In this document: positions 18,144-23,422 of the stretch, one piece after another
Layout of the letters: each line of letters opens with the position of its first letter
Position numbering within the stretch: the stretch's first letter is position 1
Virus record (IMG/VR): IMGVR_UViG_3300020442_003349
Location: 1-25,664 of that record
DNA from: a virus
Length of the DNA: 25,664 bases
Reading direction: 5' to 3' (one strand)
Notes under the pieces: model-generated
Seen by the model: the letters and a program-made list of their open reading frames with translations, nothing else
Told to the model about the DNA's origin: nothing
Databases searched by the model: none
Made by a program: the position numbers and the translations under genes

Positions 18144-19160
18144 TTAGATCTTAATCCAACGTTCGTTTGCGAGTGTCCATTCAACAACTTCTTTGACACG
18201 ATCACGGATATCTTTGGGTTGCCATCCCATTGCTCGCATCTTCTCACCAGACAATGCATAACGTAGATCATGTCCAGGACGTGCAGAGTGGAAGTCAACC
18301 ATCTCATACTTAAGTTCCTTGCCCTGAGCATCAGCAATCAACTGTGCAAGTTGAAGGTTGTTCAGTTCCTCAGCACCAACGATGTTGAACTTGGGACATT
18401 TTGCACCACCCCAAGTGTAAGATTCTACGTTCTTACCAAGTAGGAACAGAAGTGCATCTGCAACATCCTCAGCATGGATGTAGTGTCGTGAACCAGGAAT
18501 TTTTTTAGTTGGATCACTGTGAATGGTAATTGTTTCACCATCCCGCACACGTTTAATACACATTGGAATGTACTTCTCTGGGTGCTGACGTTGCCCAAAG
18601 ACATTCATCGTGTGAGTGATGTAGACAGGAACACCATAAGTATTATGGAATGCAACTGCTAGTTCTTCACCACCTGCCTTTGTTGCACTGTATGGGTTAG
18701 TAGAATTGTAACGATCATTCTCCTCATACAAGATGCCGTCTGGTGCAGGACCAAAGACTTCATCAGTACCGAAGTAAATAAACCGTTCTAGATGATCTAG
18801 ACCACGGGCATAGTCAAGGATGTTGCAGGTTGCCACAACGTTATCCATGACGAATTCCATGGGATATTCGATGCTGCGATCAACATGAGAACCAGCAGCA
18901 AGGTGAAGGATGTAGTCAACCTTACCAATGTCTGCAGCAATCAATGGGTTCACTGCTGCTTTTAGATCATGGAATACAACCCTTACCCGAGAACGATCCT
19001 CAGCAGAAAAATCTTTGAGAACGTCCTGAAGACGATTAAGATTTCCACTGAAGTCTAGACGATCTAGCGTAACTACTTCCCAGTCTGTGTTCTTCAGAAT
19101 CTGTGAAATAAGATGGTGAGCAATGAATCCTGCACCACCAGTAATTAACGCTCTTTTCAT
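18144..19160 (-). CDS. dTDP-glucose 4,6-dehydratase-like nucleotide-sugar enzyme
   Basis: A 338-residue extended short-chain dehydrogenase. The N-terminal GGAGFIAHH (8-16) binds NAD. LAAGSHVDRSIEYP, the catalytic TDEVFG (T132, D133, E134) and YSATK (Y157, K161) follow. The Asp-Glu pair after Thr is typical of 4,6-dehydratases (RmlB) rather than simple epimerases. The C-terminal half has GSRHYIHAEDVADALLFLL and ARPGHDLRYALSGEKM. The predicted reaction makes a 4-keto-6-deoxy sugar nucleotide. It follows the carbamoyltransferase half-genes by 20 bases, which suggests joint modification of a sugar on the host surface, virion or DNA. Confidence 0.88.
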   Translation of the reverse strand: MKRALITGGAGFIAHHLISQILKNTDWEVVTLDRLDFSGNLNRLQDVLKDFSAEDRSRVRVVFHDLKAAVNPLIAADIGKVDYILHLAAGSHVDRSIEYPMEFVMDNVVATCNILDYARGLDHLERFIYFGTDEVFGPAPDGILYEENDRYNSTNPYSATKAGGEELAVAFHNTYGVPVYITHTMNVFGQRQHPEKYIPMCIKRVRDGETITIHSDPTKKIPGSRHYIHAEDVADALLFLLGKNVESYTWGGAKCPKFNIVGAEELNNLQLAQLIADAQGKELKYEMVDFHSARPGHDLRYALSGEKMRAMGWQPKDIRDRVKEVVEWTLANERWIKI

Positions 19161-19180: not shown

Positions 19181-20404
19181 TCAATTATAACCCACCGCAT
19201 TCATTTTTGCAACCTCATATTCAATCTGACTTTTCAAAAGTCCTTTGGGTGGTTGCTTAACTCCAAGATAAACGTTTTTGAATGGATACTTCTCCATGGA
19301 TTTTGTTGCCTCATAGTAAAATAACTTTGCTGCTCCAAGAGACTGACAAGCATCACCTGCAATAGGATCAATAAAGAAATTAATGTCAGGAAATTGTTCT
19401 TGGATGACTGAGTTTGCACAAATGTTTAATGCACAACCTCCAGAAAATACAATGTTCTTCGTATCTGGTCTCAGTTCAAGAACTTGCTGAACTCTCATCT
19501 TCAAAACATGTTCCATACAATTTTGTATTTCCCATGCAAGATCTGCTTTCTTTTGAAAGTCGTCATGATGCCTAAGTTGAGGGAAGTTTGTTGTGTTGAA
19601 TAATCTATTACTATAGAACACATTCATATTTGCCATTCCATTATCAAGAATGAATGATGGTAAGTCATCATTATGATCACCATATGCAGCAAGACCCATG
19701 GTCTTTCCACATTCATCTCTAATAAATCCAAGGTGATATGTAACAGTTCCATACATCACACCAATGTCATAACAAGAATTGACATCGATAATATCATTAT
19801 CTGTCAACATCTCAAAGAAATTATTTGGGAAATTGACTTCAATAAATCCTCTTGGTGATGGTGCAGGAACGATCAGATTTTTATAGAGCAATCCAAAGTC
19901 ATTTGGATACTTTGCATAATATATTGAGGTGCTCTCCAAGAACATGATGTCACTCCACTTCTGAGCATTCTCCTTATCTTCATCGGAGAGTTCAATCTCT
20001 GCCAATTCCATAAGAGCATCAACTCTATAGTCAGCACCCCAACCATCAATCACAATGACAGCAGCTTCATCAAAACCTGATGCATAAAAACCAGAGGCAG
20101 CATGATAAAGATGATGCTCATCAACTTCAATGGTTGTTGTGATGCTATCTAATTTAAATTTCTTTAAGATCTCTTCAATATCACCAATATCTTTATCATC
20201 ACCATTAGTGATTACAAACTCATCGATACCATATTGTTCATGAAATTTTAGAACACGATCAAAAACACAAAGAAGTGAATTATCATGCTTCTTGCCAGAA
20301 AGTCTTTCTTCCAATACCATTTCATGAACTTCACCATTACGGATCATGGTGACACCTGCTTCATGTCCACTAATTGAGAAGCATACTACATTATAGTTTT
20401 TCAT
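19181..20404 (-). CDS. Carbamoyltransferase N-terminal (ATPase/Kae1-like) half, copy 2
   Basis: A 407-residue protein equal to the N-terminal domain of NodU/CmcH/TobZ carbamoyltransferases. It has VVCFSISGHEAGVTMIRNGE (the ASKHA-fold start), HHLYHAASGFYASGFDEAA with metal-type histidines 97, 98 and 101, then VIVIDGWGADY. CGKTMGLAAYG, NIVFSGGCALN and IDPIAGDACQSLGAAK come later. In full-length enzymes this half uses ATP to activate carbamoyl phosphate. The usual C-terminal half is absent downstream: after KNVYLG there are 26 more residues and a stop. It overlaps the preceding C-half gene by ATGA. Its partner must be one of the two separate C-half proteins if it is active. Confidence 0.88.
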   Translation of the reverse strand: MKNYNVVCFSISGHEAGVTMIRNGEVHEMVLEERLSGKKHDNSLLCVFDRVLKFHEQYGIDEFVITNGDDKDIGDIEEILKKFKLDSITTTIEVDEHHLYHAASGFYASGFDEAAVIVIDGWGADYRVDALMELAEIELSDEDKENAQKWSDIMFLESTSIYYAKYPNDFGLLYKNLIVPAPSPRGFIEVNFPNNFFEMLTDNDIIDVNSCYDIGVMYGTVTYHLGFIRDECGKTMGLAAYGDHNDDLPSFILDNGMANMNVFYSNRLFNTTNFPQLRHHDDFQKKADLAWEIQNCMEHVLKMRVQQVLELRPDTKNIVFSGGCALNICANSVIQEQFPDINFFIDPIAGDACQSLGAAKLFYYEATKSMEKYPFKNVYLGVKQPPKGLLKSQIEYEVAKMNAVGYN

Positions 20405-20958
20405 TTGACTACCAACATATCAACATCGGGGAAGTAAACATAATATAGATCTGATTTTTTCAGAGATGTCATTGCTTGCTTTGCAGTTTCAACTATCGGA
20501 TCACCAGCAAGATTGAATGATGTGTTTAGTAAGATTGGAACCTTTGTATTGATATAGAAAGTTTTAATTAGATTATAGTAGTGAAAATTTTCTTCTTTGT
20601 TGACTGTTTGTATTCTACAAGTTCCATCGACATGAGTGATAGCAGGAATATATTCCTGCATAGTTTCTTTCACTCTAAGATTGAATGTCATATAAGGAGA
20701 ACTCTTTAGACCAATCATATCAAACCATCTGTCAGCATGTTCTTCCAGGACAGAACCAGCAAATGGTCTAAAACTTTCTCTCTTTTTTACAGTATTGACT
20801 ATATCCTTTCCGTTAGGAATTCTTGGATCAAACAAAATGGACCTATTGCCCAATGCCCTAGGTCCAACTTCTGATCTACCTTGATGTATTGCTCCTATCT
20901 TTTTATCTAAAATCAGTTCAACGACATCATCATAAGTAACATCATATCTAATCTTCAT
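20401..20958 (-). CDS. Carbamoyltransferase C-terminal (YrdC-like) half, copy 2
   Basis: A 185-residue protein equal to the C-terminal domain of the same family. It contains IGAIHQGRSEVGPRALGNRS with GPRALG at 32-37, then ILFDPR, FRPFAGSVLEEHADRWFD, GTCRIQTVN, YYNLIKTFY and VPILLNTSFNLAGDPIVET. This domain carries the carbamoyl-phosphate and acceptor site. The motif is fully canonical. It follows the copy-1 N-half with an ATGA overlap, so these two genes together equal a normal N-to-C enzyme cut in the interdomain linker. Confidence 0.88.
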   Translation of the reverse strand: MKIRYDVTYDDVVELILDKKIGAIHQGRSEVGPRALGNRSILFDPRIPNGKDIVNTVKKRESFRPFAGSVLEEHADRWFDMIGLKSSPYMTFNLRVKETMQEYIPAITHVDGTCRIQTVNKEENFHYYNLIKTFYINTKVPILLNTSFNLAGDPIVETAKQAMTSLKKSDLYYVYFPDVDMLVVK

Positions 20959-22181
20959 ACGCTAGGTCCAAAATAAACATGCTTAAATGGGAATTTCTCT
21001 TTGCTCTTTGTCATTCCATACCATAGATATTTTGCTGCACCAATTGCAGTTCCAGCATCATGAGGAATAGGATCAACAAAAAATTCTACTTCTGGAAATG
21101 CCTTTGTGTATTTATAGTTGTTGACACAATTTAAGAAATATCCACCAGACAATACAATCTTATTCTTACCAGTCATATCAATCGTCTTTTGAATTAAACG
21201 ACAGGTATGATTGTAGGTTTCTTCCTGTAGTTTATGTGCAAGAGATGCACAGAGATAAGTATCCAGATCTGGCAATTCAAATTCACATTTAATATCATTA
21301 TCTTCTAGGAAGTTTTCCATTGCTGATTGGATGTTTTCAATTGTCATCCAAACACCTTCCTTCTCATAGAACCAGTCGCACACAAAGATGAACTTATCCT
21401 TTTCATAGTTTCTCAGAATATGATAGTTCTGCTTATATGAATCAGATGCAAGTCTGTGTCCAGATAGACCCATTAATTTACCTGCTTCATTTGAACCACC
21501 AAGTTCAAAGACAGCACACATTATATTAAATAAGTCTCCACAACTCCTTGTTCGGGAGTAAATTTCATTCTTACTTCTCTTCCAAAATATTTTTCTTTCA
21601 TCATCAGGATCTTCATCATCCTCATCTAACATGGAACAATGCTTAAATTTTGTGGTGAAAAGATTATCATAAGAACAATCAAAGATACTTTCAATTTCTC
21701 TGAAAGGATATTTACTATGTTTATATGTTTCTTCCTTTCTATATTCTACATCATATGCACCACCACCATCCAGAACTAGTGCTGCTGCATCATCAAATCC
21801 AGATGCAAAGAATGCATTTGCTGCATGGTAGATGTGATGATTGTCAGCAAAAATCATAGAGGTATTGAAAGAAATACCTTCTTTCTCAAGTGCTCTAAGA
21901 ATATTTCTCCTGATGAGGTCATCTTCTTCTGCTTTGTCTCTACCATAAGAAGTAAAAACAATATAGTCAATCCATGTTGTATATTTTTTAATCGTATCAG
22001 TATGATGATAGATGTCAGTATATCCACCATTCTCATCATAAAGATCGAACAGTTCGTTAAAATCACCCTCTGGCATTTTGACACCAGTCAGTCTATCATC
22101 TTCAGAAAAATATACAATCTCACCATCTTTCAAGAGACAAGCAGATGGTTCATGAGATATATTAACTCCTAGAATATACAT
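20955..22181 (-). CDS. Carbamoyltransferase N-terminal (ATPase/Kae1-like) half, copy 1
   Basis: A 408-residue protein. It starts MYILGVNISHEPSACLLKDG and has HHIYHAANAFFASGFDDAA (histidines 115, 116 and 119) followed by LVLDGGGAYD. NEAGKLMGLSGH, KIVLSGGYFLNCVNN and VDPIPHDAGTAIGAAK complete the fold. It stops at FKHVYFGPSV, exactly where fused enzymes pass into the linker, and overlaps the copy-2 C-half by four bases. It directly abuts the upstream C-half stop. Copy 1 and copy 2 N-halves share the motifs and overall length but have clearly diverged, so the duplication is not recent. Confidence 0.88.
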   Translation of the reverse strand: MYILGVNISHEPSACLLKDGEIVYFSEDDRLTGVKMPEGDFNELFDLYDENGGYTDIYHHTDTIKKYTTWIDYIVFTSYGRDKAEEDDLIRRNILRALEKEGISFNTSMIFADNHHIYHAANAFFASGFDDAAALVLDGGGAYDVEYRKEETYKHSKYPFREIESIFDCSYDNLFTTKFKHCSMLDEDDEDPDDERKIFWKRSKNEIYSRTRSCGDLFNIMCAVFELGGSNEAGKLMGLSGHRLASDSYKQNYHILRNYEKDKFIFVCDWFYEKEGVWMTIENIQSAMENFLEDNDIKCEFELPDLDTYLCASLAHKLQEETYNHTCRLIQKTIDMTGKNKIVLSGGYFLNCVNNYKYTKAFPEVEFFVDPIPHDAGTAIGAAKYLWYGMTKSKEKFPFKHVYFGPSV

Positions 22182-22754
22182 TTATGATACCTCGTTCTTT
22201 GCGTAAATTAGGGTTGCTTTTTCTGGAAGATAAAGATATTCAAATAATGATCTTTCTAGTGTTGATAATGCCTGCTTCAGAGTGTGAACAATTGGTTCAC
22301 CTCCAAGATTAAAAGATGTGTTGCCAACAATAGGAACTCCAGTCAAATCCTTATATGCCTTAATCAAATTATAGTAATGTGGATTATCTTCTTCACGCAC
22401 AGTTTGAATTCTGCATGTTTTATTCTTATGGATAATTGCTGGAATTTTCTTTGCCTGATCTGGTCTTACGTCAATTGCATATGTCATGAATGGAGATTCT
22501 TCTATAGTTCCGTTGTCAAACCATTCAGAAAAATCTTCCACCAAAATAGATCCAGCAACAGGTCTATACCATTCTCTCTTCTTGAGGATGTTGACGTGCC
22601 CCCACATCTCGTAAATACGTGGGTTGAATAGGAATGATCTATTTCCTAGAGCACGTGGTCCTCCTTCATCACAACCTTGATAAATGGCAACAATGTGACC
22701 ATCATCAATAAGTTTAGCAACGGTAGAATAATCAACCTTTGGTATTACTTTCAT
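22182..22754 (-). CDS. Carbamoyltransferase C-terminal (YrdC-like) half, copy 1
   Basis: A 190-residue protein that is transcribed first in the array. It contains IVAIYQGCDEGGPRALGNRS, FLFNPRIYEMW, YRPVAGSILVEDFSEWFD, KTCRIQTVREEDNPHYYNLI and VPIVGNTSFNLGGEPIVHT. The GPRALG motif is present (32-37), but the position usually Arg in 'QGR.E.GPRALG' is Cys (C28). No N-half precedes it; ThyX lies upstream. It probably pairs with one of the two N-half proteins encoded after it. A late-type promoter motif lies 21 bases before the ATG. Confidence 0.88.
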   Translation of the reverse strand: MKVIPKVDYSTVAKLIDDGHIVAIYQGCDEGGPRALGNRSFLFNPRIYEMWGHVNILKKREWYRPVAGSILVEDFSEWFDNGTIEESPFMTYAIDVRPDQAKKIPAIIHKNKTCRIQTVREEDNPHYYNLIKAYKDLTGVPIVGNTSFNLGGEPIVHTLKQALSTLERSLFEYLYLPEKATLIYAKNEVS

Positions 22755-22774: not shown

Positions 22775-23422
22775 TTATTTATTATGCTCCGTCCATCCAA
22801 GTGCTTCAGCAATCACTGGGAACTGACCAGCAAAGATACACTTGCATTCATTAGCAATATCCATGTGCTCCTTCTGTGTGCCATTAGCAGATCTCAGATC
22901 GATATAATGGATCCATGAGCGCACTGAGCCCGACATGTAAATTTTTGTTGGTGTTGCTAATGGAAGCACAAAGCGGGCACATTCCTTTGCAATTCCCATC
23001 TCAAGCATGTGCTTATAGATGTCCATACCACTCTCAAAGTGTCTCCTGATAGTAATCTCAAGTTCTTGCTTCAAGAAAGGATCAACATCATCAATAGAGT
23101 TCTGTCTGTTCTTTGTGTCTTGAGAACGTAGGTCAAACATAGGAATCTCATCGGAAAGCAGAGATGAATCTGCATACCGTTGTGAAAATTCTTGATATGT
23201 GAACGAACGGTGGCGCAAAATTTGAGCTGCCAGACCTCTGGTAGTATTGATTTCCAGAGTCATGAATGCCATCTCAAAGATACTCCAGTGCTTGTGATTG
23301 ATACAATACTTGAGTAGTCCAGCAATCTTTTCATTCTCTTGATTTGCAGGATTGCTTACACGGGCACAATATGCAATATTCTTCTCCGCATCAGGTGTAA
23401 CAGAGATCAGTTTAACATTCAT
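22775..23422 (-). CDS. thyX: Flavin-dependent thymidylate synthase ThyX
   Basis: A 215-residue protein. The ThyX signature is RHRSFTYQEFSQRY (residues 70-83), with Thr where Ser is more common inside the motif. The C-terminal SVRSWIHYIDLRSANGTQKEH provides the substrate and flavin contacts. It makes dTMP from dUMP with methylene-tetrahydrofolate and FAD/NADPH, supplying thymine for phage DNA. The length is normal. The start overlaps the preceding 59-residue gene by 11 bases. It is the last gene of the unit started by the promoter at 23804-23832, unless readthrough enters the carbamoyltransferases. Confidence 0.95.
   Translation of the reverse strand: MNVKLISVTPDAEKNIAYCARVSNPANQENEKIAGLLKYCINHKHWSIFEMAFMTLEINTTRGLAAQILRHRSFTYQEFSQRYADSSLLSDEIPMFDLRSQDTKNRQNSIDDVDPFLKQELEITIRRHFESGMDIYKHMLEMGIAKECARFVLPLATPTKIYMSGSVRSWIHYIDLRSANGTQKEHMDIANECKCIFAGQFPVIAEALGWTEHNK
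22776..22783 (-). promoter_or_regulatory. Late-type promoter motif before carbamoyltransferase array
   Basis: The minus strand reads AATAAATA, one mismatch from TATAAATA. It overlaps the ThyX stop codon and ends 21 bases before the ATG of the first carbamoyltransferase gene. The AT-rich context makes chance occurrence possible. Confidence 0.4.

Follow-up and report, generated by a model that had tools for sequence, protein, structure and literature searches.

A cyanophage array of four separate carbamoyltransferase half-genes in the order C-N-C-N, probably encoding two split enzymes

The window, the whole 25,664-base IMG/VR virus contig analyzed here, is a genome fragment of a T4-like cyanophage carrying genes for a gp32-type SSB, a gp59 loader, PhoH, an exonuclease, and baseplate proteins, and among isolates it is matched most closely along its length by Synechococcus phage S-SCSM1 (81% covered, 88% identity). 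Among the replication genes, the minus strand carries an array of four intact ORFs, each corresponding to half of a carbamoyltransferase, which are transcribed in the order C_A-N_A-C_B-N_B and bordered by thyX and an NDP-sugar dehydratase gene. In order of transcription, the locus comprises the following features:

22775..23422, minus strand: thyX (TIGR02170), the upstream border of the slot.
22182..22754, minus strand: C_A, YrdC-like half, 190 aa, first gene of the array (PF16861, E 2e-54).
20955..22181, minus strand: N_A, Kae1-like half, 408 aa (PF02543, E 1e-13).
20401..20958, minus strand: C_B, YrdC-like half, 185 aa (PF16861, E 5e-59).
19181..20404, minus strand: N_B, Kae1-like half, 407 aa (PF02543, E 3e-24).
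18144..19160, minus strand: SDR, dTDP-glucose 4,6-dehydratase-like (TIGR01181, 233 bits, below its cut-off of 365).

Coordinates and Pfam matches agree with an earlier note on this DNA, which had described two N and two C half-genes of these lengths in C-N-C-N order, each abutting the next or overlapping it by four bases; C_A and N_A abut with 0 bases between them, and the N_A/C_B and C_B/N_B junctions are 4-base overlaps, the latter retained in most arrays. All four products fall into carbamoyltransferase families in PHROGs. The two C halves share 51% identity and the two N halves 34%. PF02543 and PF16861 are thus both present, but on separate chains, so that the four ORFs depart from the single N-C polypeptide that defines class III O-carbamoyltransferases. 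Members of this class (TobZ, GdmN, VtdB, NovN, and NodU) have the same two domain families and the same metal and catalytic residues, and they provide the best PDB matches; whereas they are single Kae1-YrdC chains, the array has two chains per enzyme, with the YrdC gene first, in two sets. A profile search matched N_A to TobZ, which is also the best PDB match of the AlphaFold model of N_B, a Kae1-like fold (pTM 0.86).

Two other known systems resemble the array in part. HypF also places YrdC before Kae1 and uses carbamoyl-AMP chemistry (PMC9654439), but it is a single polypeptide that also contains acylphosphatase and zinc-finger domains and acts on HypE, and no Pfam match to these additional domains was found in the four ORFs. 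A joined C_A-N_A model aligns to HypF over both domains, sharing the YrdC-Kae1 order but differing in the relative placement of the domains; in the AlphaFold model of the C_A-N_A readthrough chain (pLDDT 87, pTM 0.68), the halves fold well and their relative placement is not fixed. The TsaC/Sua5 and TsaD/Kae1 proteins of t6A synthesis, on the other hand, are separate YrdC-like and Kae1-like chains that pass on an acyl-adenylate, but they handle a threonylcarbamoyl group, have tRNA as acceptor, and belong to other Pfam families; none of the four ORFs had a TsaC/TsaD family as its best match, carbamoyltransferase families being the only ones retrieved at E 0.01.

The isolate S-SCSM1 carries an orthologous array, annotated gene by gene in GenBank, in the same order and the same slot (SSCSM1_194 to 197, between thyX and a dTDP-glucose-dehydratase-like gene), at 73-89% identity (89% for C_A, 85% for N_A, 88% for C_B, and 73% for N_B). 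Related loci include 14 distinct C-N-C-N clusters, counted after identical contigs and sequences were merged, with identities down to ~40%. The order is therefore conserved across phage genomes, as the earlier note had proposed to check. The same note had regarded fused halves or a random order in related phages as evidence against its reading, and here the outcome is divided, because fused NC, N-C, and N-C-N forms do exist, whereas within the clade of the window the order is locked. Because the isolate shares the order and 14 distinct loci repeat it, the array is no sequencing or decay artefact. Two ordinary fused N-C genes broken by frameshift errors or pseudogene decay might otherwise have been suspected, since cells as a rule, and phages often, have the fused form, but the split and the order are the same in the isolate and in many independent contigs, dN/dS is low, and a C-first order is unobtainable by frameshifting an N-C gene; the conserved array already refutes this explanation, to which we give practically no credence. 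In L001, L012, and L020, C_A and N_A are in frame and parted by TAA TAA. Stop-codon readthrough from C_A into N_A was also considered and rejected, as one or two TAA codons intervene in the several contigs where the genes are in frame and in others they are out of frame, with no conserved design.

The catalytic His, the HxxxH...D...D metal site, and the KxR and SxN motifs are kept across the four halves and their clades. In N_A, the conserved residues are His10, His115, His119, Asp138, and Asp375, and the catalytic residues of the N halves do not vary among 19 N_A-type and 19-20 N_B-type proteins; an N_B fragment with a missing end is the sole exception to invariant catalytic and metal residues in the array clades. 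Motif residues Lys58, Arg60, and Ser147/Asn149 are conserved in the C halves, of which C_B is the best-conserved of all four genes. The roles of the catalytic and metal residues are taken from work on GdmN (PMC9633730), with a summary of TobZ/TsaC motifs as a second source (PMC9654439). The likely equivalents of the residues altered in the TobZ PDB variants H14N, K443A, and S530A are His10/His14, Lys58, and Ser147, all of which are present; judging by alignment position, K443 would correspond to Lys58 and S530 to Ser147. All four genes are under purifying selection, with dN/dS of ~0.04-0.20. The view that decay is unlikely, previously drawn from intact motifs in both N halves, is supported by the low dN/dS, and catalytic residues are present in all four halves. 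The same source had assigned ATP use to the N half, an assignment that has to be reversed: the YrdC-like C half does the ATP-dependent activation, and the Kae1-like N half does the transfer (PMC9654439). In C_A and its orthologues, Asn replaces two Asp residues (44 and 111, C_B numbering) that are invariant in the other sampled C halves; Asn occupies these positions in 15 of 17 cases, and nearly all other C halves have Asp. Given these replacements, we are less sure that C_A is active.

In phylogenies of the individual halves, the array positions each form a clade of their own (C_A within C1, support 99/97; C_B within C2, support 100/98), and these clades are old. A sister relationship of N_A and N_B is rejected (AU p=0.007), and with it, for the N halves, a single tandem duplication of one C-N unit; the array therefore does not stem from one such duplication but from two related units that were joined. 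Wider sampling revealed phages with a single C-N pair. A B-type N is paired with a B-type C (clade support 90/87) in 9/9 single-pair loci (L118, L119, L120, L121, L124, L126, L135, L136, and L145, with a fused gene in addition to the pair in L119 and L120), and an A-type N with a B-type C in 0/8 (L002, L003, L029, L149, L150, L157, L215, and L219), these loci representing a few clades and hence no independent samples. The wider trees do not place the C partners of the A-type N halves as kin of C_A, and AU tests tying them to C_A or C_B gave p values of 0.355 and 0.158, neither being rejected. Distance correlations among the four genes, with the ThyX/PhoH background removed, all lie at 0.71-0.81, and no partner stands out. 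Because the halves sort into concordant A and B types, with each C-N pair standing alone elsewhere, the simplest and most likely reading of the sequences is that the native units are C_A+N_A and C_B+N_B, both with C ahead of N, which were joined in the clade of the window. This concordance points away from the inner pair N_A+C_B, whose collinearity with a normal enzyme the earlier note had remarked on, as the basic unit, and gives no indication of its suggested two specificities made by swapping halves.

The genes, their order, conservation, residues, and selection, and a pairing concordant by ancestry are the observations on which our interpretation is built; complex formation, chemistry, and acceptors we infer. 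The array would encode a pair of heteromeric class III O-carbamoyltransferases, C_A+N_A (unit A) and C_B+N_B (unit B), each divided where its two catalytic domains meet. By analogy with TobZ and GdmN (PMC9654439), the YrdC-like C subunit most likely makes carbamoyl-AMP from carbamoyl phosphate and ATP, and the Kae1-like N subunit, through its metal site and catalytic His, would transfer the carbamoyl group to an acceptor hydroxyl. The domains being separate, the carbamoyl-AMP intermediate would have to pass across a chain interface, and tightly coupled translation may supply the halves in matched amounts. A hetero-oligomer, as suggested previously, would be the natural expectation. The N lineages being old and distinct, the units are likely to serve two acceptors, or two positions of one acceptor. 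That C_A+N_A and C_B+N_B are two split carbamoyltransferases, each making and transferring carbamoyl-AMP, is the reading we hold to be probable, if by no means secure.

A single large heteromer of four subunits, for example an N_A-N_B heterodimer, like TsaD-TsaB of t6A synthesis, that is supplied by C_A and C_B and directed at one acceptor, would fit the persistence of all positions together across the larger arrays as well as the 14 C-N-C-N clusters, a distance correlation between N_A and N_B as high as that of the other pairs, and the fact that GdmN works as a dimer in which a partner loop helps form the acceptor pocket (PMC9633730). We consider it unlikely, however, as each unit type stands alone in other phages and all N halves have a complete active site, which sets them apart from a TsaB-type helper.

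Viral carbamoyltransferases are more varied in architecture than the array indicates. Counted as clusters, 69 are fused NC, 31 are N-C (mainly from one separate clade), 22 are C-N (a few of them cut by contig ends), 14 are C-N-C-N, 10 are NC-N, and 9 are N-C-N (one cut by a contig end); rarer forms are C-N-C-N-N (3), NC-C-N (2), NC-N-N, C-N-N-C-N, and C-N-N-C-N-N. The enzyme is fused in all of the 80 cellular loci sampled, which are the nearest relatives of C_B rather than a random draw; one of these loci has an N in addition. Five arrays are larger than C-N-C-N, with five or six half-genes (L023:5427-11545, L024:5427-10254, L128, L130, and L132; C-N-N-C-N-N, C-N-N-C-N, or C-N-C-N-N). N_B is the type found duplicated in larger arrays. 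Transitions between the fused and the split state seem to occur, because in the thyX slot the corresponding N genes of L171 (NC-N) and of L238/L241 (N-C-N) group together. A separate clade of marine phages (L036-L083, e.g. L037:5995-7468) has a split N-C form with a short N of ~320-345 aa, gene overlaps of 4 or 17 bases, and 2OG-Fe oxygenase and virion structural genes as neighbors; frameshift fusion was rejected there, the overlaps showing no obvious slippery site by eye. Other loci (L004:7237-8346, L006:4986-6143, and L193) combine a fused enzyme with one or two stand-alone N halves, which are clustered with sugar genes (hldE-like, sugar kinase, gmhA-like) and retain the active site in the two that were checked.

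Across these forms, surplus copies are always N (NC-N, NC-N-N, N-C-N, C-N-C-N-N, C-N-N-C-N-N), a C surplus occurring solely at contig ends, and the additional N genes of L023/L024 all belong to the N_B type, beside a single C_A, N_A, and C_B. Both features would suit a modular arrangement in which the C subunits are general makers of carbamoyl-AMP, to which several interchangeable N subunits that differ in acceptor can bind. We regard such sharing as possible but doubtful, since every array keeps two diverged C types, which would be needless if activation were general.

Carbamoyltransferase genes are found repeatedly in the thyX-RbpA-phoH slot of T4-like cyanophages, in the forms C-N-C-N, C-N, NC-N, and N-C-N. 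Where visible, the flanks are thyX on one side and an RbpA-like gene or phoH on the other in all 14 C-N-C-N clusters; in L149, L157, L160, L215, and L219, carbamoyltransferase genes are flanked by the RbpA-like gene on one side and phoH on the other, and in S-T4 the slot has none. PDB matches of the SDR behind N_B are dTDP-glucose dehydratases. This gene and the glycosyltransferase and sulfotransferase genes adjoining the B-type pairs in L118 and L120 are faint pointers to sugar hydroxyls or nucleotide-sugars as acceptors, which is probably the best guess, although many arrays have no SDR (it is limited to the near clade and missing from L023, L024, L026-L028, L128-L133, and L148). S-SCSM1 encodes a fused carbamoyltransferase elsewhere in addition to the array; therefore, the array probably does something that the fused enzyme does not.

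Modification of phage DNA bases has a precedent in the 5-hydroxymethylcytosine carbamoyltransferase found on phage contigs by MetaGPA (PMC8670742), a phage enzyme with the same domain pair, and thyX, which adjoins the array in a slot among replication genes, could be imagined to supply the base. That enzyme is a single 63-kDa chain with a neighboring dCMP hydroxymethylase of the thymidylate synthase family, a partner missing here: no PF00303 match (thymidylate synthase/dCMP hydroxymethylase) was found in the complete S-SCSM1, S-RIM44, and Sf-FP1 genomes or in six contigs. In addition, thyX is also found in phages with an empty slot, the RHRSFTYQEFSQRY motif of its active site being identical in S-T4, and relatives of the array neighbor glycosyltransferases. 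With the partner not found and ThyX not special, modification of the 5-hydroxymethylcytosine type was rejected, and we consider carbamoylation of DNA bases very improbable.

The domains and their chemistry are already known, as are the S-SCSM1 genes in GenBank, but the family is bigger and more varied than the earlier note implied. The main text of the S-SCSM1 genome paper does not mention carbamoyl enzymes, and in the literature covered, which took in part of the subscription papers, we came across no account of Kae1/YrdC or phage carbamoyltransferases in split or multi-copy form. Cyanophage carbamoyltransferase has been treated as a pyrimidine-synthesis (pyrBI-type) enzyme (PMC9146016, PMC10436341); on a cursory inspection of the two genomes concerned, genes of NodU/TobZ type seem to have been misannotated. 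A role in pyrimidine synthesis is not supported by the domains of the genes analyzed here. From an evolutionary point of view, it is conceivable, if only tentatively so, that viruses have a modular carbamoylation of their own, in which C subunits feed a growing, exchangeable set of N subunits and new acceptors are gained by duplicating N alone. Kae1-YrdC carbamoyltransferases have been described as single chains that hand on an unstable intermediate internally, and the split, multi-copy versions of ocean phages are natural material for studying how carbamoyl-AMP moves between separate proteins; the array may also help to address whether a single activator is enough for several transferases and which molecules phages carbamoylate.
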